Virus record (IMG/VR): IMGVR_UViG_3300025327_000065
Coordinates: 1 to 42,379 of that record
Length of the DNA: 42,379 nucleotides
Strand: one strand, 5' to 3'
Source of the DNA: a virus
Numbering within the stretch: the first letter of the stretch is position 1; every line of letters begins with the position of its first letter. The notes below the pieces were generated by a model. The model saw nothing but the letters and a program-made list of their open reading frames with translations. It had not been told where the DNA came from and searched no databases. Positions 280-16,368 of the stretch are shown piece by piece. A program made the position numbers and the translations under genes.

Positions 280-615
280 CTATTGAAATAAAAACTTTTT
301 TCTTCCACCATTATGATTTTTTCTAGCTTTAATTATATCTTGATTAATAAATGTTTTTATTCTGTGGCAATTAGCACACCTGAGAACTGTGTTTTTGATT
401 TCTTTATCCAATAGAAAAATCCATTTCTCTTCCCCATGTATTGCTCTATTTATTAAGGTAGATATATTGTATTGTTTTTTGTTTAGATCAACGTGGTCAA
501 AGTCCATTGCTACAATATGGGGCATCTGTCCACAATCAACACACTTACCACCAAGTTGTTCTATCAATATTATTTTTAGTTTGTTCTTTTTGTCTTTTTG
601 TGAATTCTTATTCAT
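280..615 (-). CDS. HNH homing-type endonuclease
   Basis: A 111-aa protein with a compact HNH (beta-beta-alpha metal) nuclease layout. It has a CVDC zinc pair near residues 25-28, the DFDHVD motif around 38-43 with the catalytic His at 41, and a CANCH pair near 80-84. Freestanding HNH enzymes of this size are common mobile genes in phage DNA metabolism clusters, where they nick DNA and spread by recombination. It sits between the polymerase gene and the OB-like/exonuclease gene, is AT-rich, and has no Shine-Dalgarno site. A sigma70-like promoter (621-649) ends just upstream, so the transcript may be leaderless. The family call is firm; homing activity is inferred. Confidence 0.85.
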   Translation of the reverse strand: MNKNSQKDKKNKLKIILIEQLGGKCVDCGQMPHIVAMDFDHVDLNKKQYNISTLINRAIHGEEKWIFLLDKEIKNTVLRCANCHRIKTFINQDIIKARKNHNGGRKKFLFQ

Positions 616-620
616 AGAAA

Positions 621-649
621 ATTATAACACATTTACTATTAAATAGCAA
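621..649 (-). promoter_or_regulatory. Candidate sigma70 promoter for the HNH gene
   Basis: On the minus strand TTGCTA is followed after exactly 17 nt by a perfect TATAAT (621-626). The expected start of transcription is about 614-615, on the first base of the HNH start codon. The promoter overlaps the end of the polymerase gene. Confidence 0.45.
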
Positions 650-2708
650 CTACTTTTTGCTCTTTCCAGTTGTCTCCACAAGTAACTTTTACCTTAGTTG
701 GAAGACCTAAATAAATTCCATATATAGATTTCATATACTTAGGTGTGTCTTCTAATGTGGTTTTAATAAAGTGCATAGCTGTGTGTACTAAATCTTTTTT
801 ACAATCAAAGACTAATTCATCATGCACTAAGTTAACCATGAGACAGTCAGTAGAAAACTTACTATTACTTTGTAACATTCTCCAAAGAACACCAGTCATG
901 GTCAGTACCAAGTCACCAGTAGCAAATCCTTGTACTGGATAGTTCTTTATCTCTGTAGGTTTAAAGTTCACTTCTCCCCGCCTAAAAGGGTTGTCCTTTT
1001 CTTGGAAGGTGTATACTCGTCCAGTGGTGCTGTGTAAATATCCTGTACCAGAAGGATGTCCTGATGGGGTGTGTAGTATCCCATTGTATGACCTAGACAT
1101 ATTGACTTTATCTATGTTGTTATGTTGCCAAGTAGCAACTTTATTGTATCTACTATAGAAGGCATCAATAATCTTCTTGACTTCTTTTGCTGGTAGTCCT
1201 GATTGTGCTGCTAGACTGTTAGCTGTGCCTCCATAGATAAGACCAAAGTTTACTGTCTTTATTACTCGTCTTTCATCTTTGGTTATAACAGCTTTGCTTC
1301 TGCCATAGTATGCCCTACCAACTTCTTCATGTATATCCCGGCCATTTAGAATATCATCTATTAGTTGTGGGTCTTGGCTGAGATAAGCCAGAGCTATGAT
1401 TTCTATCTGTTTATAATCAGCAGATATAATCATGCCATCCTCTCCCCATCTACTAACAAAGAGTTTCTTTACATCACTATCCATATGTGCTGGTATGTTC
1501 TGACTATTTGGGTTGTCTGAAGATGGTCTGCCCGTTGCAGTAGAACACATATTAATATTGTGGTGTATAAGACCATCAGGGAATATCAACTCACTCAACC
1601 CTTCATAATAAGTATTGAGTTCTTTCTTTATCTTTTTACGTTTTAGAAGGTCTTTAATTATAGGAGACCATTGTAATTTATTACTCGAAATAATAGATAT
1701 TCTTTCTACTTTATTTAAAACTTCCTCATCTATTTTAAACCCGTTAGCATTTGGTTCTGAGAAAGATTCACCATCAAACTGTTGTGGAAGAGATACGTGT
1801 GTTTTAATATGTCTGTTTCTAGTCTTTCCATTCTTTAATGTAGTAGGTACTGTAGTATCAAAGTCAATGGCTCCACCAAACAATATACTTGATAACTGTT
1901 TATTACTATCTATATTAATAATATAGGCATTAAGTATAGGTAGTAACTTCTTGATTTCATTAACAACATCTATCTCAAGCATATCAACTTCTTGTTCTGC
2001 TTTTTGTTTTAGGTCTTTTAGAAGAGAAGGATCAATAGCCAAACCATTATATTCCATGTCAGCAACAGCTACTAAGGCATCCATCATAGATTCTATAAGA
2101 GGCAGTTTCTTTTTGTCGTAAGCTTCTTGCATTTGCTTAAATGCTATTGCTTCTGTGTTGGTTAGGTCTTGCTCAAGATATTCTTTTAAGATATCCTCAT
2201 CAATACCATCAGCCCCTATACCTTTTTTAAACATCTCTTTTACTTTGTCATCTTTTATAGGAAGCCCATACTTAATTGACATGGCATCTAAGCTTGCATA
2301 TTTATGGTCTTGTCCTGTAAGAAGATACTCCGCTAATTGTGTGTCCCATATTTTATTCTCAACTAACCAAGTTTGCAAAGGAATTTTATGAATAGTGGCG
2401 TTGGCTTTACGAACATGGTGTAAATCAAACTTAATGTTTTGTCCTATAACCACAGATACTTTTACTTTATATTCAGGGGTTATAACTATATTAAAGGTTT
2501 TGTTTAAATATTCATTTTTATTTGCTTTACTTGTAGTGATAATACTATTGGCTGTGACCGGAGAATTTGTGTAAGTGTACCCTTTTAATCCGGCCATAAC
2601 TATATAGTTATCAGGACAAAATGGTGAGGCTTTATTCTTTCCAATAGTGTTCTTCATAGTAGTCTCTACATCAAGAGTTACTATGGTATTAAATGTTTCT
2701 TTAGTCAT
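639..2708 (-). CDS. Family A (PolA/T7-type) DNA polymerase with 3'-5' exonuclease domain
   Basis: A 689-aa replicative polymerase. The N-terminal DnaQ-like proofreading domain shows Exo I at D13-V-E15, Exo II in NIKFDLHHV (D95) and Exo III near YLEQD (D181). The polymerase domain shows TATGRPSS (about 391-397), motif A with catalytic D431 in SADYKQIE, motif B RRVIKTVNFGLIYG (K484, F488, Y492) and motif C VHDE (H629-D630). The residue at the E. coli Pol I 762 position is Phe, not the Tyr of T7. There is no 5'-3' exonuclease domain and the length is close to T7 gp5. The ATG overlaps the helicase stop by one base (TAATG), which suggests coupled translation. Confidence 0.97.
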   Translation of the reverse strand: MTKETFNTIVTLDVETTMKNTIGKNKASPFCPDNYIVMAGLKGYTYTNSPVTANSIITTSKANKNEYLNKTFNIVITPEYKVKVSVVIGQNIKFDLHHVRKANATIHKIPLQTWLVENKIWDTQLAEYLLTGQDHKYASLDAMSIKYGLPIKDDKVKEMFKKGIGADGIDEDILKEYLEQDLTNTEAIAFKQMQEAYDKKKLPLIESMMDALVAVADMEYNGLAIDPSLLKDLKQKAEQEVDMLEIDVVNEIKKLLPILNAYIINIDSNKQLSSILFGGAIDFDTTVPTTLKNGKTRNRHIKTHVSLPQQFDGESFSEPNANGFKIDEEVLNKVERISIISSNKLQWSPIIKDLLKRKKIKKELNTYYEGLSELIFPDGLIHHNINMCSTATGRPSSDNPNSQNIPAHMDSDVKKLFVSRWGEDGMIISADYKQIEIIALAYLSQDPQLIDDILNGRDIHEEVGRAYYGRSKAVITKDERRVIKTVNFGLIYGGTANSLAAQSGLPAKEVKKIIDAFYSRYNKVATWQHNNIDKVNMSRSYNGILHTPSGHPSGTGYLHSTTGRVYTFQEKDNPFRRGEVNFKPTEIKNYPVQGFATGDLVLTMTGVLWRMLQSNSKFSTDCLMVNLVHDELVFDCKKDLVHTAMHFIKTTLEDTPKYMKSIYGIYLGLPTKVKVTCGDNWKEQKVVAI

Positions 2709-3973
2709 TATGGGCTTCCTTTTTTACTGTAAAACTGACATTTTTCTACATCAAAACCCACTTCAAAATACCCATGTCTTTTCTTAGGGTCAAATCTAGG
2801 GCCACCGGGTAACTTGTTCTTAGGGACATGGATGAATCTAGTATCCATAAATAGAGGGTTATTTACTGCGCCCATTGTTATAATCACATCTGCTTCTCCT
2901 TGAAGTCCTGTCTTACTGCCATAGAGTTGATCTTTGTATATCCACTTTTGGCCTTCTGCTGAACCATCTGCTTGAGCTATAGCAAACACCGGGCCATAAG
3001 TCTTAGCCAAACGTCTTGACCATTGGGCAAGCTTTCTAAACCTATCAACCTCTTTCTCCCCTTCAAACCCAACTAACTTATCAAGTACATTGATAACAAT
3101 TAGTTTAGGCTTTAGTTCTTTACAGATTCTATCTATATCATGTACAGATATAGAGGGGTCATCAACTATTTTAATACGATCTTCTTTGCCCATCTTCTTT
3201 ACATAGTCACTTGAAGACTTTGGTTCATCTTTTAGTATATCTTTCAGGTCAAGATTGAGTACACTTTGATACGCCCTGAGTATGATGCGTTCTCCTTGTT
3301 CTTCATTGTTTATCCAAAGAATAGTATCATCAACTGGTAGTTGTGTAGCCATGTGACAGGTCTGGTCTACAGCAAAAGATGTTTTACCTGTCTCTGGTCG
3401 TGCTCCTATTACTATGAAGTCCCCTTTGTGGAGAGGGCCAACTGATATGTTAAGTTCTTCAAGCTTCCATTCAAGCCCATCTTTACGGAAAGTCTTATCT
3501 ATAACTTCACTCAGTTTTGTCTTACTAAAATTATCTTGGCGTTTGGTCGCTCTCTCCACTTCATTTTCGTAAGCCCCCATAATGGTTGGTATTTCCGATA
3601 GATCGAGGGATTTTCCCGATATAAACTTGTTAGTACAATCAAGTAGTTGGGCTGCATAATCCAGAGCCACAAAATAATTAAGTATTTCTTTAGTGGATGC
3701 ACTTGTTGTTGCTCCTTGCAAGTTAGTAAATATCTTAGTGTATATATCTTGGTCAGCTTGTTTAAGACTAGAGTTCTTAACTAACTTAAACCATGTACCA
3801 AAGGTGTTCCAATCAAGGTCTAGTAAAGTAGGATTGACTTTGAAGTAAGTATCAATGTCTTTTATTATTTGTGATCCTTGGTTAGTAAGAGCATGCTCTT
3901 TAAGAAAGGGTTTAAACCTATAATAATTAGCTTTGTTCTTAAGGACATGGAGAAGATCAAGTTCGGTCAGCAT
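2708..3973 (-). CDS. DnaB-family replicative helicase
   Basis: A 421-aa RecA-fold hexameric helicase that should unwind the fork ahead of the polymerase. The Walker A motif is GARPETGKTS (about 190-199), followed by the H1a-like WINNEEQ (about 220-226), a LIVINVLDKL Walker B-like stretch, and a FAIAQADGSAEGQ region matching motif H3. The first ~150 residues are an alpha-helical N-terminal domain without a zinc ribbon or toprim domain. Primase is instead a separate gene upstream at 4792-5619, so the T7 gp4 functions are split here. The start overlaps the preceding small gene by 17 nt. Confidence 0.93.
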   Translation of the reverse strand: MLTELDLLHVLKNKANYYRFKPFLKEHALTNQGSQIIKDIDTYFKVNPTLLDLDWNTFGTWFKLVKNSSLKQADQDIYTKIFTNLQGATTSASTKEILNYFVALDYAAQLLDCTNKFISGKSLDLSEIPTIMGAYENEVERATKRQDNFSKTKLSEVIDKTFRKDGLEWKLEELNISVGPLHKGDFIVIGARPETGKTSFAVDQTCHMATQLPVDDTILWINNEEQGERIILRAYQSVLNLDLKDILKDEPKSSSDYVKKMGKEDRIKIVDDPSISVHDIDRICKELKPKLIVINVLDKLVGFEGEKEVDRFRKLAQWSRRLAKTYGPVFAIAQADGSAEGQKWIYKDQLYGSKTGLQGEADVIITMGAVNNPLFMDTRFIHVPKNKLPGGPRFDPKKRHGYFEVGFDVEKCQFYSKKGSP

Positions 3974-4250
3974 TTAGTTTTAGTTTTTCTAGTTCCTCTA
4001 TTAGATTTTTTATATTGAAAGATGTAATTTTTACACATTTTTTAAGTGTCTCTTCTAGTCCTTGGTATGACTCTTTGTGTCCTAGTCTGAACCCTTGAGT
4101 ATCAAAATACTGTGGTTTAGAATTACCACTGATCCAAACATATTTGAGATTTTTATTGTTTCCTTGTTGGTCTTGTACAATTAATATATACCAATTATTT
4201 CCATAACAAAGCAAATCTCCGGGTTTTACATCCTTTAGTTCAAGGGACAT
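3957..4250 (-). CDS. Small beta-barrel (SH3/KOW-like) protein
   Basis: A 97-aa hypothetical protein. The N-terminus reads LKDVKPGDLLCYGNNWYILIVQDQ, the strand-turn-strand pattern with a PGD turn seen in SH3-like or KOW barrels. A basic and acidic helical tail follows. It is the third of three consecutive small genes between primase and helicase that share the K/PxxGDV start and a similar length. Start: ATG with AAGGAGAA upstream. Function unknown; a relation to the two upstream genes is inferred from pattern only. Confidence 0.75.
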   Translation of the reverse strand: MSLELKDVKPGDLLCYGNNWYILIVQDQQGNNKNLKYVWISGNSKPQYFDTQGFRLGHKESYQGLEETLKKCVKITSFNIKNLIEELEKLKLNADRT

Positions 4251-4279
4251 TATTAAATTCTCCTTTCTTGTGTTTCTCT

Positions 4280-4534
4280 TTACTCATGTTCTATAACCTT
4301 TGAGATAAAGTCTTCAAGTACGCTACCATTAAGATTGCCAACGAAATCAAAATCCCTCTGTAGATGAATCAAGTCCCATTCATCCTCTTTGGTTAGAATA
4401 AAACTCCTATCTGATAGGGAAAAGAAAACCCTACTTAATGGTTCCTCTGGACTTCTGTGTCCTACTAAAAGTACAGACCAACCTAATGCTTTGTGTCTAA
4501 ACACATCCCCGGATGTTGGCTTCTCTTTACTCAT
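4280..4534 (-). CDS. Small beta-barrel-like hypothetical protein
   Basis: An 84-aa protein starting MSKEKPTSGDVFRHKALGWS. It has the same opening (MSKxxxPxSGDV) as the next gene upstream and the same ending pattern NLNGSVLEDFISKVIEHE versus NLNGKTLEKFILESVRENT, so the two are paralogues by local duplication. Its start codon overlaps the end of that paralogue in the string ATGAGTAA (4527-4534). Function unknown. The shared C-terminal NLNG-x-x-LE-x-FI motif is the most useful search handle. Confidence 0.75.
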   Translation of the reverse strand: MSKEKPTSGDVFRHKALGWSVLLVGHRSPEEPLSRVFFSLSDRSFILTKEDEWDLIHLQRDFDFVGNLNGSVLEDFISKVIEHE

Positions 4535-4799
4535 CAGTATTTTCTCTTACCGATTCAAGTATAAACTTTTCTAATGTCTTTCCATTGAGATTAAATAAGA
4601 ATTTTGAATCTTTTAATTCTTCTTCTACTGATTTAGTAAAGGAATCACCTAAGAAAAAGAAATCTTTTTGGGTATTAGCAAGCCAAGCTAACTGTAATCC
4701 ATCTTTATTTGAACAAACTATAACTAGGGCTTTATGTGAACCAACACCAAATGAATATAAATAAACATCCCCTGATTTTGGCTCATGCTTTTTACTCAT
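4527..4799 (-). CDS. Small beta-barrel-like hypothetical protein, paralogue of its neighbour
   Basis: A 90-aa protein starting MSKKHEPKSGDVYLYSFGVG, with strands rich in aliphatic and aromatic residues (ALVIVCSNKDGLQLAWLANT). It is followed by the NLNGKTLEKFI tail shared with the downstream gene. Its start overlaps the primase stop in the same 8-nt string (ATGAGTAA, 4792-4799) that forms its own downstream junction. This fits tandem duplication of a whole cassette. Function unknown. Confidence 0.75.
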   Translation of the reverse strand: MSKKHEPKSGDVYLYSFGVGSHKALVIVCSNKDGLQLAWLANTQKDFFFLGDSFTKSVEEELKDSKFLFNLNGKTLEKFILESVRENTDE

Positions 4800-5619
4800 A
4801 TTTTATATATCCTTTAATCTCATTATCTGAATGGTCTTTGGGGTCTTTACTAGTAAGTATAAGTTCTACTCTTCCAGACACTAACACTTTAAATAGACTA
4901 GCTAGTTTATTCTGTTGCTTAATTACTTCTGGTTTATCATTATCTAACCAGATGTATGTGTTCTTGTATCTATTGGCTATCCAGTTAATTACTTCGGGGG
5001 TTGGGTGTGATCCAAGGAGGGCGATTGCATCAGTCGTTCTTGATACTTTAATTGCCGAGATAATATCTTCAACAAGAACTGCTGTAGATGAATCAAGCCC
5101 ATGTTTATAAACGCCACAGTTCCCACTAGGATTATCAGAGTCCACTGTAGTAAGGTACTTAGGAACATCTCCGTCTTTAGCAAAAGAACGTCCTTGCCAA
5201 CCAACGTAATTGCCATCCATATAGATAGGAAACAAAAGCCTATCAACAGAAGGACTGTAAACGATACCATGATTCTTAATCTCCTTTTCAGTAATACCAT
5301 ACTTAAGAAGCCAAGCTCTAGCTGTTGTGGGCCATACAGATTGGTTGACTTCAGTATCAATAGGAAGTCTTAAATCTTTTGGGTCTTTAGCTATTGCTTG
5401 GATTCTATTCTTTGAGTGTATATTAGTTATCTTATCAGTATAATAACCAGACGAGCCACAGTGATGACAATAAGCAAGAACTGTATTGTCCGGCAATCTC
5501 TTAATATATAGTCTCTTTTTTCTATCAAGCCCTTCCGGGCACCCTTCGTGATTGATATGTACTTGGGCACCGTTTATAAGCGGTGCGTGTTCCATGAATT
5601 CAGAAGGATCAAGTCTCAT
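4792..5619 (-). CDS. DNA primase (zinc-binding and toprim domains)
   Basis: A 275-aa primase that would lay RNA primers for the lagging strand. The N-terminal zinc-binding part includes the CHHC cluster at about 51-54 with an earlier Cys/His-containing segment (INHEGC). The toprim domain has the conserved Glu in VLVEDIISA (E184) and the DxD in WLDNDKP (D226, D228). It corresponds to the N-terminal half of T7 gp4, here a separate gene from the helicase. I chose the ATG at 5619. The frame stays open to 5757, but that extension overlaps the zinc-ribbon gene and lacks primase-like sequence. The ribosome site is weak, so translation may be coupled to the gene ending at 5630. Confidence 0.9.
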   Translation of the reverse strand: MRLDPSEFMEHAPLINGAQVHINHEGCPEGLDRKKRLYIKRLPDNTVLAYCHHCGSSGYYTDKITNIHSKNRIQAIAKDPKDLRLPIDTEVNQSVWPTTARAWLLKYGITEKEIKNHGIVYSPSVDRLLFPIYMDGNYVGWQGRSFAKDGDVPKYLTTVDSDNPSGNCGVYKHGLDSSTAVLVEDIISAIKVSRTTDAIALLGSHPTPEVINWIANRYKNTYIWLDNDKPEVIKQQNKLASLFKVLVSGRVELILTSKDPKDHSDNEIKGYIKYE

Positions 5620-5629
5620 ATTTATAATT

Positions 5630-5839
5630 TTACCACACTTCACCCCTCTCGTCAAGAACTTTACTAGCTTCTTCAGAATCCTCAATGCTATCAATAGTTT
5701 CCTCAACCGGGTCAATGCTTGATTCACTACTGAATGAGGCTGATCTACATACACCACACAACTCTTCCAACTTGTTAGTCTTCTTATTAACGTACTCTTC
5801 TCTAGGTTTTAATATGTTATTGCACGCCTTACACCGCAT
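5630..5839 (-). CDS. Small zinc-ribbon protein
   Basis: A 69-aa protein with two CxxC knuckles (MRCKAC at 3-6 and LCGVC near 28-31) and an acidic, Ser-rich tail. Similar short treble-clef or zinc-ribbon proteins are frequent in phage early operons; their partners are unknown. It overlaps the upstream gene by 11 nt and lies just before primase. Confidence 0.8.
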   Translation of the reverse strand: MRCKACNNILKPREEYVNKKTNKLEELCGVCRSASFSSESSIDPVEETIDSIEDSEEASKVLDERGEVW

Positions 5840-6191
5840 CTTCTTCGTTCCTTATTTCCTCTATGATTTCATAAGGGAAAACGTACCCTGCATCTTTCAA
5901 CATTGTAAGAGTGTCAACAGTCTCTTGTTTAGTTTGTGGATAGTAAGATTCTCCATCGTAAGGCAAGCCAATCGGCCCTCTTGGTGCTGTTTTTAAAAAG
6001 TCCATTTGTTTGTTGTGGCGCTCAATATAGGAAACATAATCTTTATCTTCTGTCATTTGTTTCCAACCGTCAGAAGGCACATCACCAATTACTTTGTTAC
6101 CTGCCACATGAATAGCCCACCCTCCATCACAGTGGGCATATACATATAACATACATTTACAATCATCTGTACTAAATCTACAATAACTCAT
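5829..6191 (-). CDS. Conserved phage hypothetical protein (MSYCRFS family)
   Basis: A 120-aa protein beginning MSYCRFSTDDCKCMLYVYAH and continuing with GGWAIHVAG. This opening (MSYCRxSxDDxxC-YVY...GGW-HVA) recurs in many phage proteins of unknown function. The early Cys residues (4, 11, 13) and His 20 could bind metal. The start has GGAG upstream. It is the first protein gene after the three-tRNA cluster. Confidence 0.8.
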   Translation of the reverse strand: MSYCRFSTDDCKCMLYVYAHCDGGWAIHVAGNKVIGDVPSDGWKQMTEDKDYVSYIERHNKQMDFLKTAPRGPIGLPYDGESYYPQTKQETVDTLTMLKDAGYVFPYEIIEEIRNEEDAV

Positions 6192-6209
6192 GGTTTCTCC
6201 TTTAAAATA

Positions 6210-6287
6210 TGGCGCCCAACCGAGGACTCGAACCCCGCACCAACGGCTTACAAAACCGCTGCTCTACCAATGATGAGCTAGTCGGGC
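6210..6287 (-). tRNA. tRNA-Thr (anticodon UGU)
   Basis: Cloverleaf on the minus strand. The acceptor stem GCCCGAC/GTTGGGC has one G-U pair; then discriminator G and an encoded CCA. The anticodon loop is TTTGTAA with anticodon TGT, and the T-arm is CGGGG-TTCGAGT-CCTCG. It reads ACA codons. Only about 2 nt separate its 5' end from the discriminator position of the upstream tRNA-Gln. Confidence 0.92.
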
Positions 6288-6290
6288 GAT

Positions 6291-6360
6291 TACCTACTAT
6301 GACTCGAACGTAGATTCACAGCTTCAAAGGCTGCTGTCCTGCCAGATTAGACGATAGGTA
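6291..6360 (-). tRNA. tRNA-Gln (anticodon UUG)
   Basis: Cloverleaf on the minus strand: acceptor TACCTAT/GTAGGTA, anticodon arm GCAGC-CTTTGAA-GCTGT with anticodon TTG, and T-arm CTACG-TTCGAGT-CATAG with one mismatch. CCA is not encoded, so the end must be matured by a nucleotidyltransferase after cleavage from the adjoining tRNA-Thr. It reads CAA codons. Confidence 0.85.
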
Positions 6361-6370
6361 AGGAATAAAT

Positions 6371-6443
6371 GGGACTAGGTTGGAATCGAACCAACGACCA
6401 CCACCATGTCAAAGGTGGTGCTCTACCACTGAGCTACTAGTCA
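6371..6443 (-). tRNA. Val-like tRNA with an 8-nt anticodon loop
   Basis: The D-arm (TAGCTCAGTGGTAGAGCA) and T-arm (GTTGG-TTCGATT-CCAAC) are canonical, and the anticodon arm closely matches bacterial tRNA-Val(GAC). However, the loop between CCACC and GGTGG is TTTGACAT, eight nucleotides instead of seven. The acceptor stem TGACTAG/CTAGTCC has a mismatched first pair (T-C). Depending on loop packing it could present GAC (Val), UGA, or the four-base UGAC. Amino-acid identity is uncertain; a degenerate copy is possible. Confidence 0.7.
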
Positions 6444-6511
6444 CTACAAAAATAAAGCAAGAAAGAAGTATTAGATTTCAGTGCGTCCACCTAATTTGTA
6501 ATGCTCAGTCT

Positions 6512-6629
6512 TGCTGCTTAAAAATGGGAGTGGCTGTATCTTTGAGTGACCATCACTCTGCGATAAACCCTACAGCTAGGTGCACCCTATTGGTTAAAGG
6601 GGCGATAAGTCCCTAATGCTTTAGCAGCA
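6512..6629 (-). ncRNA. Candidate structured RNA upstream of the tRNA cluster
   Basis: The gene-free stretch 6444-6643 holds nested complementary segments. An outer helix pairs 6620-6629 with 6512-6522 (TGCTGCT/AGCAGCA plus three A-T pairs after a bulge). Inside it 6571-6576 pairs with 6533-6538 (GCTGTA/TACAGC), enclosing a perfect hairpin GAGTGA-CCA-TCACTC at 6544-6558. It lies directly upstream of three tRNAs in the same transcript. It may be a processed RNA or a folded leader. No match to a named family is claimed. Confidence 0.4.
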
Positions 6630-6643
6630 CTCTTTTCAATCAA

Positions 6644-6931
6644 TTAAAACGGTGTCGGATTCGGACAATAGTATTCTTTTAGTGCCCGTCCTATTGCTAC
6701 CATGCGTCCAACTTTCCTAGTCGGTACGTCTCTATCTGAGCAATAAGCTACACCCTCTGCTATCAAGTCACCATCCTCTTTTCTGAAGAGCTTGGCAATA
6801 GTAGCATACTTATGTCCCCTTCTGTCATGCGGTGTACTATTACCGTCATGCAGATGAGACACTCTTAACTTCAAGTGCTCTGGTACTGCTGATTCAATGA
6901 AGTTTTCTTTTGTCTGGAATGGTCGCGGCAT
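6644..6931 (-). CDS. Hypothetical protein
   Basis: A 95-aa protein, MPRPFQTKENFIESAVPEHL onward, mixed charged with several His and Arg residues and a DRDVPTRKVGRMVAIGRALKEYY C-terminal region. The VPTRKxGRxxAIGRA pattern resembles small phage proteins of unknown role. It overlaps the upstream gene by 38 nt. It is the last protein gene before the structured segment and tRNAs. Confidence 0.75.
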   Translation of the reverse strand: MPRPFQTKENFIESAVPEHLKLRVSHLHDGNSTPHDRRGHKYATIAKLFRKEDGDLIAEGVAYCSDRDVPTRKVGRMVAIGRALKEYYCPNPTPF

Positions 6932-7247
6932 CTTCTGTTTCCTCCAATATAGCGTTAAGTTTAGTTACGGAACTACTAATACCCATCTCTACTGCTCTTT
7001 CCAACTCCTTGCGTGTGTGTTCTACATCTAACTGTGGCATCCTTATCTTGTCAAACATGAGCTTGCCTTCTATTACCATACACCTGATGTTATAAGACTG
7101 GACTAATTCAATGGCAATCTGCGCGGCTAAGGGTGCTTCAGTCTTCTTTTCTTTTGGGGGACAAGGATCAAAGGTAATAGTAAGTACCATCTCCCCCTCT
7201 TTCCCTTCGATCTCGATTGTTGCTTTGGTTTTTTCAGTGGGTGTCAC
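6894..7247 (-). CDS. Hypothetical protein downstream of the MoxR-like ATPase
   Basis: A 117-aa protein from a GTG start with AAGGAG eight nt upstream. It has a beta-rich N-terminal half (KATIEIEGKEGEMVLTITFD) and an alpha-helical second half (LAAQIAIELVQSYN). No family recognised. It follows the ATPase by 20 nt in the same operon as the VWA protein, so it could serve that system, but nothing in the sequence proves this. Confidence 0.75.
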   Translation of the reverse strand: MTPTEKTKATIEIEGKEGEMVLTITFDPCPPKEKKTEAPLAAQIAIELVQSYNIRCMVIEGKLMFDKIRMPQLDVEHTRKELERAVEMGISSSVTKLNAILEETEDAATIPDKRKLH

Positions 7248-7267
7248 TACTTAGTCTCCTTTTGAAA

Positions 7268-8359
7268 TCACTTGATTTCTTTTCCATAGACTTTCATTAC
7301 AAACTCATTCACTACCTTACAGTCATCGTTGATGAGCTTATCAAACCAGCAGAGCTTGAGGGCTATTAAAGGTTCTCCCCAATATGCTGACTTCCTTGCC
7401 CAATTAATAAGGGTTCGAGGACTCATGGTGATACCAATGTTCTGCTTCTCGTAGCTGTCCCGAACCAAACTAGACAGAGTGAGCATATCCTTCACCCAAC
7501 CATCAGGAATCTCCGGGGCTACGTTCTTAAGAACCTTTCTTTCATGCTCCTTGTTAAGATAGTCATGCTTGATGACTGTCTGGAACCGATCAAGAGTAGC
7601 AGTATTCTGGACGTTAGTACCAGCATGGCGTCCAGTAGTATCTCCTTGCAGTTCCGTGTTATCAGTACATACAATCCTGAAGTGCTCATGTGGATTGATA
7701 ATACGTTCAGAGGCAGGGCCGGGATAGTCCGGTAAATAAATCTGGCCTTGATCTTCAAGAACATATTGAAGACTCATGGTAATATCTGAGTTGGCTGAAC
7801 TGAATTCATCCAAGCAAAGGACACCACCATAAGTACCAAGGATACCAATAGGGCCGTGCTCATATGTCATAGTACCACCAGTGATCTTAGGCATACCAAA
7901 CACCGCTGAGTATTCCACCTGATTGAAGAAGTTGATACGGATAAATGGTATGTTAAGAATAGCACACACATTCTTAATCAAGCTGGACTTGCCTGAACCA
8001 GTGGGGCCAATAATTAGTGTCTTATCCCCATTAAGAACAGCAGCCACCACCTTCTCCGTGTTCTCCTTCGGCCAGATATACAGAGGGTCTAACTTTGGAA
8101 TGAAACAACGCACCTCATCCGGCCAATCTTCCGGTTGGAACACCCTTAAAGCGTGTTCCCTTCCTGAAGGAGATTTAAACCCAAACATATCTTTAAAGAA
8201 CTTTTGCCCGGTGCCAACAACAACTTCCGGCACTTGATACTCAGGCTCCGGGGGTTCCGGTGTTGGTGTTTTAGGTGCTTCCTGTTCTCCCCGCATCTCA
8301 AGTATACGATTCATTACTTCTTGATTGAGGGATGATCCACTACCAGTAGTTGCTGGCAT
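7268..8359 (-). CDS. MoxR/CobS-type AAA+ ATPase
   Basis: A 363-aa AAA+ protein. After a Pro-rich N-terminal segment (about 28-45) it has Walker A GPTGSGKSS (118-126), Walker B in GVLCLDEFSSAN (D184, E185), a sensor 1-like IVCTDN and a C-terminal helical lid. MoxR-type ATPases partner with VWA proteins to remodel or load metal cofactors into clients; the best-known pair is cobaltochelatase CobS-CobT. The gene immediately upstream encodes such a VWA protein, so they form a two-component pair. Phage copies are often labelled CobS, but no other cobalamin synthesis gene is present, so chelation is not implied. Start ATG with GGAGAAGAG upstream. Confidence 0.9.
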   Translation of the reverse strand: MPATTGSGSSLNQEVMNRILEMRGEQEAPKTPTPEPPEPEYQVPEVVVGTGQKFFKDMFGFKSPSGREHALRVFQPEDWPDEVRCFIPKLDPLYIWPKENTEKVVAAVLNGDKTLIIGPTGSGKSSLIKNVCAILNIPFIRINFFNQVEYSAVFGMPKITGGTMTYEHGPIGILGTYGGVLCLDEFSSANSDITMSLQYVLEDQGQIYLPDYPGPASERIINPHEHFRIVCTDNTELQGDTTGRHAGTNVQNTATLDRFQTVIKHDYLNKEHERKVLKNVAPEIPDGWVKDMLTLSSLVRDSYEKQNIGITMSPRTLINWARKSAYWGEPLIALKLCWFDKLINDDCKVVNEFVMKVYGKEIK

Positions 8360-8377
8360 AATTACTCTTCTCCTTTT

Positions 8378-10339
8378 CTATTTGAATATGCTTCTCTTGA
8401 TTAACGTCAAGATCGCTGCTTCCAGTTCAGAAGCCCTGTTTATTACAACACTTTCACTGTAAATATCTTTTACATTGTCATTCATAATACCTACAGCATA
8501 TATCTCTGCAAAGCCCTCACCTTCTATCTGTGCTACAACCTTCTTGGTGAATTCATAAGCATCACCACTTCTACTTGCAGCAGGGGAGCCATCACTGATT
8601 ACTATGAGTATCTTACGCTTTTGTTTCTTATCTTTCAAGCGGTCATACGCCCAAAGAATAGCATCTCCATCTGCATTAGCTGACATAAAGGTTGATGCCC
8701 TTGCAAAGTTCTCTATAATCTTCTCATCATTGGACTGTTCATCATGTTCCTTTACTATGCCTATAAAGGTATCTTTTCCATACTCAGTAAAGGCAAGAAT
8801 TTCCACAGGTATCCTAAGACTTCTAGCTATTGAAGCATTAAGAAGTATGGAACTGTCTACAGCATTGAGTAACTTCATACCATTCATGCTGCCACTAAGA
8901 TCAGTAAGAACAGTTACGCAAGTATCAAGTGTGTCTGATGTAGTCTTAGTACGGAACACCCGTTCTTCATAAGAAGCTATACCTGTCCCTGCTTTATACA
9001 CATTCTTAAAGTGTAGTTTACCTTGTTTCTTTCCACCTTGATAGTGTGCTTGGCTTCTGATCTGTAGTAGCTGCCTGATCTTATTACCAAACCCTTTTCC
9101 CGGTATGCCTTCGGTACTGTGGTGATTTCTTATTTCATTTAATCTGTGGTTTTTGTTATAGGAATACTCATCTTCATGTTTTTTTAGATAGTTGTGTGAA
9201 TAAGTATTAGTTCTATACCTGATCCAATGAATGTTATCAGTAGGAATATAATCATTATTATATGCTTTCTTTCGATGCTCCGAGTAGTCCAACTGTATAC
9301 CAGTTCCCCCCGGTTCTCCGGGTTCTATGTGATCTGAGTGTACAAACACTTCATAGCTTACTATCTGTCCTATTGGGAGCTTGCATGTCTCTCCTTTAGC
9401 GTCAGGAGGTGCAAGTTTGTTTCCTTGATTAGCTGACTCACTTCCATCCCCTTTAGACCCATCTTTATTGTCACTTGATTTAGTGCCATTATCTTTGTCA
9501 CTTGGCTGTTCTCCGGCTTTAGCAGTTCCCTTGCCAGATTGTGTGCCACTTCCTTTATCCGTTCCGGGCTTACCTTGTCCTTGTTGCTCTTGCTTTCGCT
9601 CATCTTGTTTCTCTTTGATATGCTTTTCAGCATCTTCTTCCCATAAGAGTTCATAGGTTCTCTTTGCTAGATTAAGACTAGCTCTACTGCCGGGTCTACC
9701 TTCATGTAAGTTTTCAAGTTCTTCGGTCACTCCATTCTTATCAAGTTTGTCTACTAAATCTTTCACGCCGGGAGTCATGTGCTTCTCAAACAAGGCTTCC
9801 ATTTCTATAGCAGCAGGACTCCACTTAGTTCTAGCCTTGAGATTACAATACCAAGCCGCTGCCATCTTTTGCATCTCACCGTCAGCGTTTTTAAGAACGT
9901 GCTCAAGGTCTTTCTTGTTTTGTTCAAGAACAGTTCGCCACCCTTGATCCAAGATTAACTTGTCCCCTCTGTAATCCTTTGCTCCTGCTTTCTCAATGCG
10001 ATTATCTTCAAAGATGTTCCATATAGCAGCAAGAGGGCTGTGCCGAGCATCGAACCCTAGTTCCTTTTCTCCAATAGGAAAAGCCTCCGGGCCTTTAACA
10101 TGATGCAAGCACTCATGCAGTACCCACCATCTGAGTTTGTGTAAATCTTCTTGAGTCACATCCCCATTAAAGGCAGGTATGATTAAGGTATTCTTGCTTG
10201 TGCAAGGTGCTGTAGCGTTAGCGTCGAACCTTGCATTAAGTCCCGCATTACTTGTTACTGTCTCGATATACTTCTGAACGGTGGATATATCAAGTAACCC
10301 TGAGTCTCGTTTGAATAAACTCTTTAGCTTGCTTTTCAT
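8378..10339 (-). CDS. HExxH metallopeptidase-like and VWA-domain protein (CobT-like)
   Basis: A 653-aa two-part protein. The N-terminal domain has a zinc-protease signature HECLH (75-79) followed by IFEDNRIE (about 109-116), whose acidic residue could be a third ligand. A low-complexity hydrophilic linker rich in Lys, Gly, Ser and Asp spans about 238-310. The C-terminal von Willebrand A domain has the MIDAS motif DLSGS (480-484) and a late VISDGSP segment. It pairs with the MoxR-like ATPase 18 nt downstream. VWA/MoxR pairs act as cofactor-insertion or remodelling machines; an intact HExxH also raises proteolysis of a host or phage target, which is inference. The start overlaps the preceding stop (ATGA-type). 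Confidence 0.85.
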   Translation of the reverse strand: MKSKLKSLFKRDSGLLDISTVQKYIETVTSNAGLNARFDANATAPCTSKNTLIIPAFNGDVTQEDLHKLRWWVLHECLHHVKGPEAFPIGEKELGFDARHSPLAAIWNIFEDNRIEKAGAKDYRGDKLILDQGWRTVLEQNKKDLEHVLKNADGEMQKMAAAWYCNLKARTKWSPAAIEMEALFEKHMTPGVKDLVDKLDKNGVTEELENLHEGRPGSRASLNLAKRTYELLWEEDAEKHIKEKQDERKQEQQGQGKPGTDKGSGTQSGKGTAKAGEQPSDKDNGTKSSDNKDGSKGDGSESANQGNKLAPPDAKGETCKLPIGQIVSYEVFVHSDHIEPGEPGGTGIQLDYSEHRKKAYNNDYIPTDNIHWIRYRTNTYSHNYLKKHEDEYSYNKNHRLNEIRNHHSTEGIPGKGFGNKIRQLLQIRSQAHYQGGKKQGKLHFKNVYKAGTGIASYEERVFRTKTTSDTLDTCVTVLTDLSGSMNGMKLLNAVDSSILLNASIARSLRIPVEILAFTEYGKDTFIGIVKEHDEQSNDEKIIENFARASTFMSANADGDAILWAYDRLKDKKQKRKILIVISDGSPAASRSGDAYEFTKKVVAQIEGEGFAEIYAVGIMNDNVKDIYSESVVINRASELEAAILTLIKRSIFK

Positions 10340-10893
10340 AGTTTAGGAATCTCCGCTAATTGTTTCCTAATCACATCTCGTTCTAAACCAGTCAAAGTGT
10401 CTGCATTATTCTTTAAATAGTCAGCACACCAGAAACATTTCGCATACACAGAAGTTTCTTTCATGTCTGGATTACTTGTCACTTCTGCTAAAACTAACTC
10501 CATATAGTCATGTTTTACCTTTAAATAGTCATGTTTTACCTTTAAATCTCTTTCTACTTCAGTCTTCCCCCTTGGGTTGCCTTCAGTGTCAAGTAACCCA
10601 ATGTCAGCAGCCAAAGCCCTGCAAATAACAGACTTGGCAGACCTGTACTTACCCGGCATCTGTTTTAAGCCGTTCTTTTCTTTGAATTCTGATTCTAGTG
10701 TCTTCTTGTTTTCTTTATATAGAGGCACGTTAGTTTCCGGCGTGTTCACTTTAGCTGTTCTATATATTGAGTCTACAATAAAAGCTACTTCCTCCTTCCA
10801 ACAATCGTTTTCTACTACACTTGCAGCAAGGTATCCCACCATAATGTCTTCAGCGGGCTTTACCTTAATGCTTGGGTTCAGTTTTAATCTCAT
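10336..10893 (-). CDS. Hypothetical protein with a tandem 21-bp repeat
   Basis: A 185-aa charged, largely helical protein (MRLKLNPSIKVKPAEDIMVG onward). A perfect 21-bp tandem duplication at 10504-10545 encodes two copies of a LKVKHDY heptapeptide in frame. A CFWCADYL segment near the C-terminus contains paired Cys. It lies directly upstream of the VWA protein and overlaps it by 4 nt, so translation is likely coupled. No family recognised. Confidence 0.75.
   Translation of the reverse strand: MRLKLNPSIKVKPAEDIMVGYLAASVVENDCWKEEVAFIVDSIYRTAKVNTPETNVPLYKENKKTLESEFKEKNGLKQMPGKYRSAKSVICRALAADIGLLDTEGNPRGKTEVERDLKVKHDYLKVKHDYMELVLAEVTSNPDMKETSVYAKCFWCADYLKNNADTLTGLERDVIRKQLAEIPKL
10504..10545. 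repeat. Perfect 21-bp tandem repeat (two copies)
   Basis: The unit ATAGTCATGTTTTACCTTTAA occurs twice back to back within a coding region. As 21 is a multiple of three, the duplication adds seven residues without shifting the frame. Confidence 0.9.
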
Positions 10894-10894
10894 T

Positions 10895-11155
10895 TTATCT
10901 TTGGTTCCTTTTCATAGTAAAGATAGTTGCTTTCATCTGATCGAATCCTCTCCTGTCACACTCTCTCTCTGCCGCAAGGTGCGCTTCCTTTGCATCATTA
11001 TACAGGAAGTCGCTCGATACATAAAGCTTTATTTGTGGATAGTTCCCAACTCTTAGGCAATACTGATACCGCTTACCCGGAGGCACAGCCTTGCGATATG
11101 GGCTGAGTGATACTACTTTGTTGTTAAATACAGCTACATTCTTCAAGGCTTCCAA
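10895..11155 (-). CDS. Hypothetical basic protein
   Basis: About 86 aa from a TTG start at 11155, preceded at 7 nt by AGGAG. The frame stays open upstream to another TTG at 11236, giving 113 aa, but that start lacks a ribosome site and begins in a hairpin (11227-11241). The protein has a beta-rich centre (YQYCLRVGNYPQIKLYVSSDF) and a basic C-terminal helix. First gene after the AT-rich spacer. Function unknown. Confidence 0.6.
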   Translation of the reverse strand: MEALKNVAVFNNKVVSLSPYRKAVPPGKRYQYCLRVGNYPQIKLYVSSDFLYNDAKEAHLAAERECDRRGFDQMKATIFTMKRNQR

Positions 11156-11293
11156 TGACAATCTCCTGTTTAAAATTACAAGGTTATAACAACAACTTAA
11201 TGTTGTTTCGAGGGCACTCTCTCTCGGACTCTTCAAGAGTCAGATTGAGAAAAGGTATATTATATATAAGTTATATATATATATATATATAAT

Positions 11294-13166: not shown

Positions 13167-13255
13167 TGGTGGATTGGGAAGGATTTGAACCTTCGTCAAG
13201 TCTACACTTGGCTAGATTTACAGTCTAGTGGTTTTAGCCTCTCACCCACCAATCC
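13167..13255 (-). tRNA. tRNA-Tyr (anticodon GUA)
   Basis: Class II tRNA with acceptor GGATTGG/CCAATCC, discriminator A and encoded CCA. The anticodon arm is CTAGA-CTGTAAA-TCTAG (GTA), the variable arm includes CAAGTGTAGACTTG, and the T-arm is GAAGG-TTCAAAT-CCTTC. All features fit bacterial tRNA-Tyr. Confidence 0.95.
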
Positions 13256-13272
13256 AAAATAACTTGATCTAT

Positions 13273-13377
13273 CCGCTAAGATGTCGCACCAGCGATACAA
13301 GCCACCAGTCCACACCTTAACGGCTAGGTACAAGCTTTTACCTAACTATACAGGGCTATTCTCACCACGCCTAGCGG
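13273..13377 (-). ncRNA. Candidate structured RNA just upstream of tRNA-Tyr
   Basis: A gene-free stretch between the 159-aa gene and tRNA-Tyr. Closing helix 13372-13377 with 13273-13278 (CCGCTA/TAGCGG). Internal hairpins: 13325-13330 with 13339-13344 (TAGGTA/TACCTA) and TCGC-ACCA-GCGA at 13284-13295. A further 6-bp hairpin GCCTAA-TCCT-TTAGGC lies outside at 13402-13417, just after the protein stop codon. No open frame fills it. It may be a stable RNA processed together with the tRNA. Confidence 0.45.
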
Positions 13378-13423
13378 TTTCCTTCGCCCTTGTAGTATTT
13401 GGCCTAATCCTTTAGGCTATTTT

Positions 13424-13903
13424 TCACGCTACAAGAATAGCCACGGCATCGTTGAACTTCTTTGCCAGTTTCGGATTCTTGTGTTCCGCCGCTTTCAAGG
13501 CATTGGCTTCCAAAAGCTGAAGCATACGCTGAAGACTTTTACGAGCGTTCCACTCGACGCCTTCACTGGACTTACCCTCATAGAAAGGGGTTTCGATTGC
13601 CTTTTCCAAGTTGATCTTGGCTTTGGCGTTCTTGACGAACCGGGCCTCTTGGCCTTTGCCTTCCCACTTGACCGCACCGTAGGACTCGAACCACTGGATC
13701 AGGGAGTTTTTACGCATCCCTTTGCTCATGGCGTTGACCAGTTTGGTGCAGTAAGTGTTGTCGCCATGCTCCATGTTATGAGCGATAGCAGAACAACCGG
13801 CTTGATGAATGTCCCCATCCAGAATCTTGCCACGTTCAGCAATACTCTTGATAAGATCATCCAGCTTTGACTTCTCTTTGATGATAACAAAATCTTTGTT
13901 CAT
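13424..13903 (-). CDS. Hypothetical phage protein (early, GC-richer)
   Basis: A 159-aa protein, MNKDFVIIKEKSKLDDLIKS..., helical, with the pattern AERGKILDGDIHQAGCSAIAH...GDNTYCTKLVNAMSKGMRKNSLIQWF. Proteins with this central pattern occur in many phages without a known function. The ATG at 13903 has GAGGG upstream, and the palindromic element at 13936-13951 lies about 30 nt before it. Codon third positions are richer in G and C than in the rest of the operon. Confidence 0.8.
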   Translation of the reverse strand: MNKDFVIIKEKSKLDDLIKSIAERGKILDGDIHQAGCSAIAHNMEHGDNTYCTKLVNAMSKGMRKNSLIQWFESYGAVKWEGKGQEARFVKNAKAKINLEKAIETPFYEGKSSEGVEWNARKSLQRMLQLLEANALKAAEHKNPKLAKKFNDAVAILVA

Positions 13904-13935
13904 AATTAAATGCCCTCTGTTGGTTGAAAGCTGCA

Positions 13936-13951
13936 ATATAATTAATTATAT
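13936..13951. promoter_or_regulatory. Palindromic TATAAT-like element, copy A
   Basis: ATATAATTAATTATAT, a perfect 16-bp palindrome containing TATAAT on both strands, about 30 nt upstream of the 159-aa gene. An inverted repeat CCCTC/GAGGG (13959-13981) lies just upstream in the leftward sense. Confidence 0.6.
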
Positions 13952-13981
13952 ATCGCATCCCTCAACCATCTATAAAGAGGG

Positions 13982-14511
13982 AAATAAGGACTAGGTTGCC
14001 CCCCCAAGTACCAATGTTCCTAAGAACTCTTGGGATATTGCGGCCCTGTACCCGCTGTGACTAGCAAGTGTTTCACCACCTATCGGCCTAGATGTTTTTC
14101 CTAGCTGTGCAAGCACCCACCTATGGCCGTTTCTCAATTAAGCCAAATGGAAAACAGGATGTAAGGGGATAGATCACCTTTGGGGGCTAGTAACATCTTC
14201 GTACCTAGCTAATCCACCGATTGTAAGTGTATGCATAGAGCTTTTCAATAGTCTCACTTAATCGCTCGACTATCTACTTTACCCTGTAGCAGAAGCGCAC
14301 TTAATACTGTTCTTCGGCAAGTAATCCCTGATATTGTGTGCTTTGCGGTCTAGGGATTGATACTAGGCTTGTAATCGCCCGTGTACCCGGCCACTCTCAA
14401 CCCGAACTCATTTTCATTACGTTCGGCCAGCCACCGCTAACTACCCTTTGCTGTCTTTATCGTCCGTAGGTTTAGACGTTTACTATTGACATTGAGACAG
14501 TCAATAGGTTG
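13982..14511 (-). ncRNA. Candidate large structured non-coding RNA (~530 nt)
   Basis: A gene-free segment, GC-richer than its surroundings, bounded by a palindromic TATAAT element (14512-14527) and a CCCTC/GAGGG hairpin (13959-13981). Neither strand has a plausible gene, yet local helices abound: 14483-14490/14500-14507 (8 bp), 14402-14407/14421-14426 (CCGAAC/GTTCGG), 14323-14329/14352-14358 (7 bp) nested in 14318-14321/14368-14371, 14248-14253/14268-14273, 14186-14190/14205-14209, and 14003-14008/14029-14034 enclosing GTTC-CTAA-GAAC. Size and position near a phage tRNA gene recall the GOLLD and ROOL large RNA classes. I cannot show homology to either. Minus-strand orientation is inferred from neighbours. 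Confidence 0.45.
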
Positions 14512-14558
14512 ATATAATAAATTATATTCCCGTACCCTATTGACAATAAGAATGTCAA
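14484..14558. promoter_or_regulatory. Two TTGAC-type inverted repeats around element D
   Basis: TATTGAC-N9-GTCAATA (14484-14506) and TTGACA-N7-TGTCAA (14540-14558) flank the palindromic element at 14512-14527. The symmetric arrangement suggests an operator, a promoter bound from both sides, or hairpins at an RNA end. Confidence 0.5.
14512..14527. promoter_or_regulatory. Palindromic TATAAT-like element, copy D
   Basis: ATATAATAAATTATAT, one central change from the consensus ATATAATTAATTATAT. It precedes, in the leftward sense, the gene-free structured segment rather than a protein gene. Confidence 0.5.
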
Positions 14559-14615
14559 CTACTGCGTACTTCACATAGGGATACTATACGCTCTTAATAT
14601 CCCTAAGTCAAGCTA

Positions 14616-14726
14616 TCAGTTCAGCCTAGTCAGGCCACGCTTGATTGCTATTTCCAGCGCATCCCGGTATGACCGGGCTTTGACTTTGTAAACCCAACCA
14701 CGATATTGAATCTCATACCATTTCAT
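14616..14726 (-). CDS. 36-aa hypothetical protein
   Basis: MKWYEIQYRGWVYKVKARSY... followed by a helix (RDALEIAIKRGLTRLN). The ATG at 14726 has a strong CGGAGG site, and the palindromic element B lies 14 nt upstream. The beta-beta-alpha plan, with KVKARSYRDALEIA, resembles small bacterial and phage proteins that add one strand-helix unit. Function unknown. Confidence 0.7.
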   Translation of the reverse strand: MKWYEIQYRGWVYKVKARSYRDALEIAIKRGLTRLN

Positions 14727-14740
14727 AATGAAGCCTCCGA

Positions 14741-14756
14741 ATATAATTAATTATAA
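14741..14756. promoter_or_regulatory. Palindromic TATAAT-like element, copy B
   Basis: ATATAATTAATTATAA, 15 of 16 positions matching copies A and C. It lies upstream of the 36-aa gene, with a perfect 8-bp hairpin ATAAGAGC/GCTCTTAT (14773-14795) further upstream. Confidence 0.6.
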
Positions 14757-14828
14757 TTGCTCCGACCACCTAATAAGAGCATTTTACGCTCTTATACCTT
14801 TTAAGTCAACCACCTAGAAACAGACGCA

Positions 14829-15444: not shown

Positions 15445-15486
15445 TGTAGAATACTCCATTAAGTTACTAGGTTTATTGAGATACCA

Positions 15487-15502
15487 ATATAATTAATTAT
15501 AT
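15487..15502. promoter_or_regulatory. Palindromic TATAAT-like element, copy C
   Basis: ATATAATTAATTATAT, identical to copy A, about 41 nt upstream of the 188-aa gene. No TTGACA-like -35 is found at normal spacing, unlike the rightward promoter. Confidence 0.6.
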
Positions 15503-15592
15503 CAGTACCATTTTAGCAGCCGGACTTCCGGCTTGCTACCTAAGAGGGTTGATACCCTTGTTAGGCTGTCCCGGCATCAGGTCGGGCCTGAA

Positions 15593-15808
15593 TGGTGCAA
15601 GGTCGCGCAGCGTACCCCACCATTGGGCATTACTAAATGCAAGCTGCATGCCAACATTGATATTCAATATAATCAATGACTTAGGTATTAGACACGTTCT
15701 AATCACGCACCATCTTGGTGCACTAACTGATAATTATTATCATTTACCATGTAACCTGTTGATATTGATAGAGATTGTATGCACCAATAAAGACCATTGA
15801 GCGCACCA
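15593..15808. repeat. Five GCACCA motifs (iteron-like)
   Basis: GCACCA occurs at 15707-15712, 15781-15786 and 15803-15808, and inverted as TGGTGC at 15593-15598 and 15716-15721. The copies at 15707 and 15716 form a hairpin with a 3-nt loop. Confidence 0.5.
15728..15742. promoter_or_regulatory. Fur-box-like dyad 1
   Basis: TGATAAT-T-ATTATCA, a perfect dyad matching the 6-1-6 core (GATAAT-N-ATTATC) recognised by the iron regulator Fur. Local AT-richness means chance is possible. Confidence 0.35.
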
Positions 15809-16000
15809 AACAGGGGCAAAGCCGGGAATAGTTATACAGATCAATAACTAATATGTTACAGTATTAGTATATAGTTATATACTTATAGACATTAGTATCT
15901 GTATGGATACTATGTACTCTCATACATAATCATATAAGTATATTCTAATATACTAATATACACGGGGCCAGGTAATCCCATTACTTGAGAATAGTAATAC

Positions 16001-16339: not shown

Positions 16340-16368
16340 TTGACATTTGTATATAAGTATGGTATAAT
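16340..16368 (+). promoter_or_regulatory. Late rightward sigma70 promoter
   Basis: Perfect consensus: TTGACA, 17-nt spacer, TATAAT. Expected transcription start is about 16375, some 23 nt before the first rightward gene. It is the only perfect consensus promoter I found and heads the structural operon, implying transcription by unmodified host RNA polymerase. Confidence 0.9.

Follow-up and report, generated by a model that had tools for sequence, protein, structure and literature searches.

A conserved RNA with a covarying pseudoknotted core, unannotated in the genomes that carry it, lies downstream of the last early promoter and ahead of the first gene in phiKMV, LKD16, phikF77, Friunavirus, Ahphunavirus, Vicosavirus and Vibrio phage KIT05, and a gene-free segment at the same place relative to phrog_1448 in an IMG/VR virus record has about an even chance of encoding a minus-strand, non-coding early RNA of its own, of about 0.5 kb and freed by hairpin processing. 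The early-leader family is the more solid finding of the two. The segment is a plausible analogue of that family, in which its membership is unproven.

The record and the surroundings of the segment

The window analysed here is the whole IMG/VR virus record, with a length of 42,379 bases, and its early gene order (CobT, CobS, primase, helicase and DNA polymerase A) is like that of Zobellviridae such as Vibrio phage ICP2. The best identity of its terminase with those of other IMG/VR contigs is 53%, and a search of IMG/VR for close relatives by means of CobT, the phrog_1448 protein, a 193-aa protein and the terminase returned none besides one contig (L082), which is 100% identical to the record and covers 381-11291 only. 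Comparison of the segment with phages by blastn gave no match, and no close homologue that could serve for a covariation test was found in phages or in IMG/VR.

The early gene downstream of the segment (13424-13903, minus strand) encodes a 159-aa protein of phrog_1448 (E 2.4e-34), a group with unassigned function that has relatives in 542 phage records according to tblastn. In the related phages examined, this gene opens the early region or is one of its first genes, and it comes after an ORF-free leader, which often ends in a helix of 9-45 bp before the first gene. Further on, a strongly structured non-coding spacer (13256-13423, minus; z -3.8, 0 of 200 shuffles) separates it from the gene for tRNA-Tyr (gta) at 13167-13255 on the same strand. 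Part of this spacer (13265-13282) shows an 18-nt complementarity, at 83%, to 14159-14176 within the segment. Elsewhere in the record, at 6210-6444 on the minus strand, tRNA-Thr and two adjacent tRNA-Gln, both with anticodon ttg, are encoded in tandem. The original prediction described the genome around the segment as otherwise packed with genes, which is not quite so, given that the spacer and the region 15503-15850 are further non-coding stretches. The latter, on the minus strand upstream of the gene for the 193-aa protein, is strongly structured (z -3.5, 0 of 100 shuffles).

Coding capacity and catalogued RNAs

That neither strand of the segment holds a plausible gene, as originally proposed, is borne out by frame length, by a codon model and by PHROG and Pfam searches, all of which agree. 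Between 13955 and 14512 the longest stop-to-stop frame has 48 codons, which is the lowest value among 450 stretches of 558 nt in the record and is as short in just 8 of 500 shuffles. With a codon model that had been trained on the genes of the record, no sustained coding signal is detected on either strand, and the small frames of the segment retrieve no PHROG family and, in Pfam, nothing better than a chance match with E 0.37. The presence of one or several very short protein genes that escaped annotation, for which a 48-codon TTG frame at 13991-14137 could be adduced, is very improbable: this frame has no clear ribosome site and no family, the coding score is weak and local, and the frame length is within chance. 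The higher GC content noticed in the segment with respect to its surroundings was also confirmed (0.46, against 0.41 for the record, in the top 10% of stretches). Its minus strand is rich in purines (0.55 overall and 0.58 in the 5' half), and so is the corresponding strand in 28 of 30 leaders of related phages (0.54-0.59).

The body of the proposed non-coding RNA (13976-14480), which would be transcribed from the minus strand, contains no frame with a family, nor does it match any Rfam model. Its size and the nearby tRNA gene had raised the idea that it is a GOLLD, ROOL or HEARO RNA, but the Rfam models of these three gave no match, either at gathering score or at E 10, and a search against Rfam with permissive filters and E values up to 10 produced chance matches exclusively. 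Within the sensitivity of the Rfam models this refutes the idea, and an assignment of the segment to these or to any other catalogued large RNA is scarcely credible. A group I intron and a tRNA remnant were also considered and discarded, as neither Rfam nor ARAGORN gave a match in the segment.

Regarding the fold, the many helices initially described can be found (the 8-bp helix at 14483/14500 was confirmed and the others are readable in the sequence), but the segment taken as a whole is no more structured than expected by chance. The body shows no fold excess over shuffled sequence, with z -1.1 for the minus strand and -1.2 for the plus strand, and these values do not bear out a “large ornate” fold. 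A low value of this kind is compatible with a functional RNA, since the fold z of 30 early leaders from related phages ranges from -5.3 to -0.2, and two of the loci that carry the proven conserved core, L083 (z -0.2) and L174 (z -0.8), score equally low.

Promoters, palindromes and bracketing hairpins

Upstream of the segment there is a sigma70-like promoter on the minus strand (TTGACT-17-TATAGT, 10/12; 14583-14611), at which the RNA is proposed to start. A near copy of it (TTGACT-17-TAAAAT; 14781-14809, minus) stands ahead of a 36-codon frame (14616-14726, minus) with a good ribosome site (CGGAGG) and no family match. Read from 14611 to 14583 and from 14809 to 14781, the two have TTGACTTA...TAAGAGCGTA in common, and the promoter repeat TTGACTTA-N5-TATAAGAGCGTA appears twice in the record and nowhere else. 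The first promoter is overlapped by a hairpin of 11 bp plus extensions (14565-14615, minus; z -5.2, 0 of 200 shuffles). On the plus strand, a 12/12 sigma70 promoter with an extended -10 box is found at 16340-16368, directed to the rightward genes.

The AT palindrome TATAATTAATTATA has five matches in the record when up to two mismatches are allowed (0.6 expected, 0 of 100 shuffles), and the four copies in the early region, at 13937, 14513, 14742 and 15488, lie ahead of three genes and of the segment. The claim of an upstream element common to three genes holds as far as the copies are concerned, but at least some of what was taken for such an element probably represents the tips of RNA hairpins and not simply a promoter. 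Two copies form the apices of long RNA hairpins that were overlooked in the original prediction and that bracket the body. The hairpin on the 3' side (13915-13975, minus) has 19 bp with one 1x1 mismatch and -24 kcal/mol (z -7.25, 0 of 200 shuffles), carries the palindrome 13937-13950 as its apex and is located just upstream of the phrog_1448 gene. The one on the 5' side (14481-14561, minus) is made of two helices of 9 bp each, separated by a 6x6 internal loop (z -4.1, 0 of 200 shuffles), the palindrome 14513-14526 sitting in its apex. In both of them, complementarity runs past the palindrome to an extent matched by 0.3% of random centres, which is expected of an RNA hairpin but not of a simple DNA operator. 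Around the copy at 15488-15501, ahead of the gene for the 193-aa protein, there is a 13-bp hairpin (15478-15512, minus; z -4.7), and at 14742 the hairpin is not outstanding.

Could these elements act as DNA instead? Two 19-bp dyads of the form TTGAC-N9-GTCAA (14486-14504 and 14540-14558), near-identical and the only ones in the record against 0.05 expected, constitute the arms in the region of the 5' hairpin and flank the palindrome. They may therefore also have a role in DNA, and could be operators of an early repressor, just as the bracketing palindromes could be DNA sites. Taken further, the whole segment might be regulatory DNA, in which palindromes and dyads serve as operators or promoters, the remainder being spacer or a decayed gene; the excess of dyads, the palindrome copies ahead of several genes and a body devoid of fold excess are in line with this. 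It is, however, an unlikely explanation, considering that half a kilobase is long for a spacer in a 42-kb phage, that the arms of the hairpins extend far beyond the palindrome and that no remnant of a protein was detected with PHROG or Pfam.

A covarying early-leader RNA family

The conserved RNA of the related phages was seen by reading their leaders side by side. Its core consists of two hairpins, P4 and P6, in that order. The loop of P4 (consensus ~GYYRAG-NNNN) forms a pseudoknot with the bases that immediately precede GAGCG, and P6 comes after this motif. Among other loci, the core is located at 744-819 in L084, 1332-1406 in L088, 1356-1447 in L173, 1448-1528 in L176 and 1004-1081 in L083. 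In the alignment used for covariation, which comprises 12 segments (11 distinct rows), 98% of the pseudoknot cells are paired and all five pseudoknot pairs have changed on both sides, and the covariation score of the whole structure amounts to 0.575, versus 0.251 in shuffles (0 of 500) and at most 0.184 with slid partners. A hand-registered table of 11 rows gives an even neater picture, in which P4, pseudoknot and P6 are paired throughout (147 of 147 cells), almost every position shows between two and four types of pair and 0 of 2000 permutations pair as well, but its registration was made by eye, so that the 12-segment alignment is the stricter test.

With a covariance model, the core is detected at E values no higher than 2.1e-8 in 26 of the 50 loci: phikF77 and RS1 (Phikmvvirus relatives), SnaR1, 18 Friunavirus, LAh3, UFV-P2, NV1, KIT05 and one metagenomic contig. 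phiKMV (9.8-17.1 bits) and LKD16 gave weak matches, with E 0.013 and 0.032, respectively, in a smaller search, and have kept the pairing. No significant match to the core was obtained in the leaders of MKPT02, Strit, Bf7, Bjorn, JG068, L087, L090-L093, ICP2 and more, which may hold other types; for the ICP2 leader the model returned no hit. MKPT02 and Strit (L085 and L185) have another conserved type of leader, GTACCCTGACGAYATGGGCAACGA...AACGTGGCTAGGCGG, which lacks the GAGCG core. Conservation of the Friunavirus leaders extends over 157 records. None of the families in Rfam (release 15) matches the 15 leader loci scanned, and no description of this family was found in the open-access literature searched.

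If right, this means that infection by lytic podophages, among them the model phage phiKMV and many Friunavirus, yields a conserved structured RNA before any other product, from a region annotated merely with promoters or hypothetical genes. It would provide a testable early factor besides the early proteins, and it would explain why around half a kilobase of non-coding DNA is kept after the last early promoter in compact genomes.

Relationship between the segment and the family

Is the segment a divergent member of this family, working likewise? Its location in a non-coding early region upstream of phrog_1448, the sigma70-like promoter ahead and, at the 3' end, a 19-bp hairpin (13915-13975) immediately before the next early gene are what would be expected from a member. 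In addition, the best match of the record to one of the leader-RNA models (R1) falls within the segment and on the expected strand (14240-14302, minus), at a AGAUAGUCGAGCGAUU motif, with 10.7 bits for R1 and 11.8 bits for a second model (R2). The R1 match is weak (E 0.029 in 3.8 kb and 0.32 in the whole record); over the record the E values of the covariance models are 0.32-0.39, and R2 yields a chance match of 12.3 bits at an unrelated place. GAGCG is present within the matched stretch, where the model skips P6, and neither the model nor a descriptor search recovered P4, pseudoknot and P6 in the segment. The score of the segment with the P4-pseudoknot descriptor is equalled by 39 of 100 shuffles, whereas for seven of eight core-bearing members used as controls this happens in 0-3 of 100, and for the remaining one (L171) in 11 of 100. 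A candidate proposed manually in the 3' part, AGGTG(GTGAAA)CACTT with GTGA/TCAC before AGCGGG, was dropped, as the descriptor search gives it no support.

At the level of the sequence, the full-length similarity of the segment to 30 leaders (z 1.5) is within the range of coding controls, compared with z 3.6-31 for six left-out leaders, and homology to the leaders is accordingly not claimed. Shorter coincidences point in the other direction. AGATAGYCGAGCGRTT is common to the segment and KIT05, and AAACATCTAGGCCGATAGG (14079-14097, minus) agrees in 18 of 19 positions with the leader, early and non-coding, of Pseudomonas phage Bjorn and is followed by CAATATCCC at nearly equal spacing (P ~0.003 as a single comparison, ~0.1 after correction). 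Scans for window-like motifs retrieved KIT05-like and Bjorn records, the rest being chance. All in all, membership with a similar way of working is doubtful. The wider proposal, according to which the segment would be a far-diverged representative of a widespread, uncatalogued pseudoknot leader family, excised by RNase III when infection begins, with which many podophages (phiKMV, Friunavirus, LAh3, KIT05 and others) would seize an RNA or protein machine of the host, is more doubtful still.

Proposed function and comparison with known systems

A minus-strand early RNA is the best reading of the segment because of the lack of a frame, the promoter-like sequence, the bracketing hairpins, the purine-rich strand and a position like that of a proven RNA family; against it, the body folds no better than shuffles and the pseudoknot core was not found. 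The initial observation is partly confirmed, and its interpretation as a structured RNA partly supported. According to this early-RNA reading, transcription by the host RNA polymerase would begin from the sigma70-like promoter (14611-14583), cross the segment and reach the phrog_1448 gene and, probably, the gene for tRNA-Tyr. By cutting the hairpins 14481-14561 and 13915-13975, host RNase III may then detach the RNA body (14480 to 13976) from the mRNA and provide the following gene with a clean 5' end. Once released, and if stable, this RNA might act on the host machinery, or else in cis on the elongating polymerase, during the early take-over.

The segment resembles the early-leader family in its early position near phrog_1448, its sigma70-like promoter, its purine-rich strand and the long hairpin before the next gene, and differs from it in having no detectable P4/pseudoknot-GAGCG/P6 core, in its own 5' bracketing hairpin and in following two earlier frames. 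The early mRNA of T7 has hairpins between early genes that are cut by host RNase III. The bracketing hairpins of the window, of the T7 type (~20 bp, with or without an internal loop, between early genes), are likewise long, imperfect and directly upstream of early genes, one of them with an internal loop, but they bracket a non-coding body of ~0.5 kb, and their cleavage is predicted. GOLLD and ROOL, which are distinct large RNAs often near tRNA islands (PMC12286853), have in common with the segment that they are large non-coding phage RNAs with a tRNA nearby, whereas the segment has a single tRNA in its vicinity, belongs to the early region and gives no sign of an ornate fold. Finally, the put RNA of HK022 exerts its effect in cis, on the nascent elongation complex, and causes antitermination (PMC9378689), and the segment would be similar to it, in the position that was compared, as a leader RNA placed after an early host-type promoter and before the early genes.
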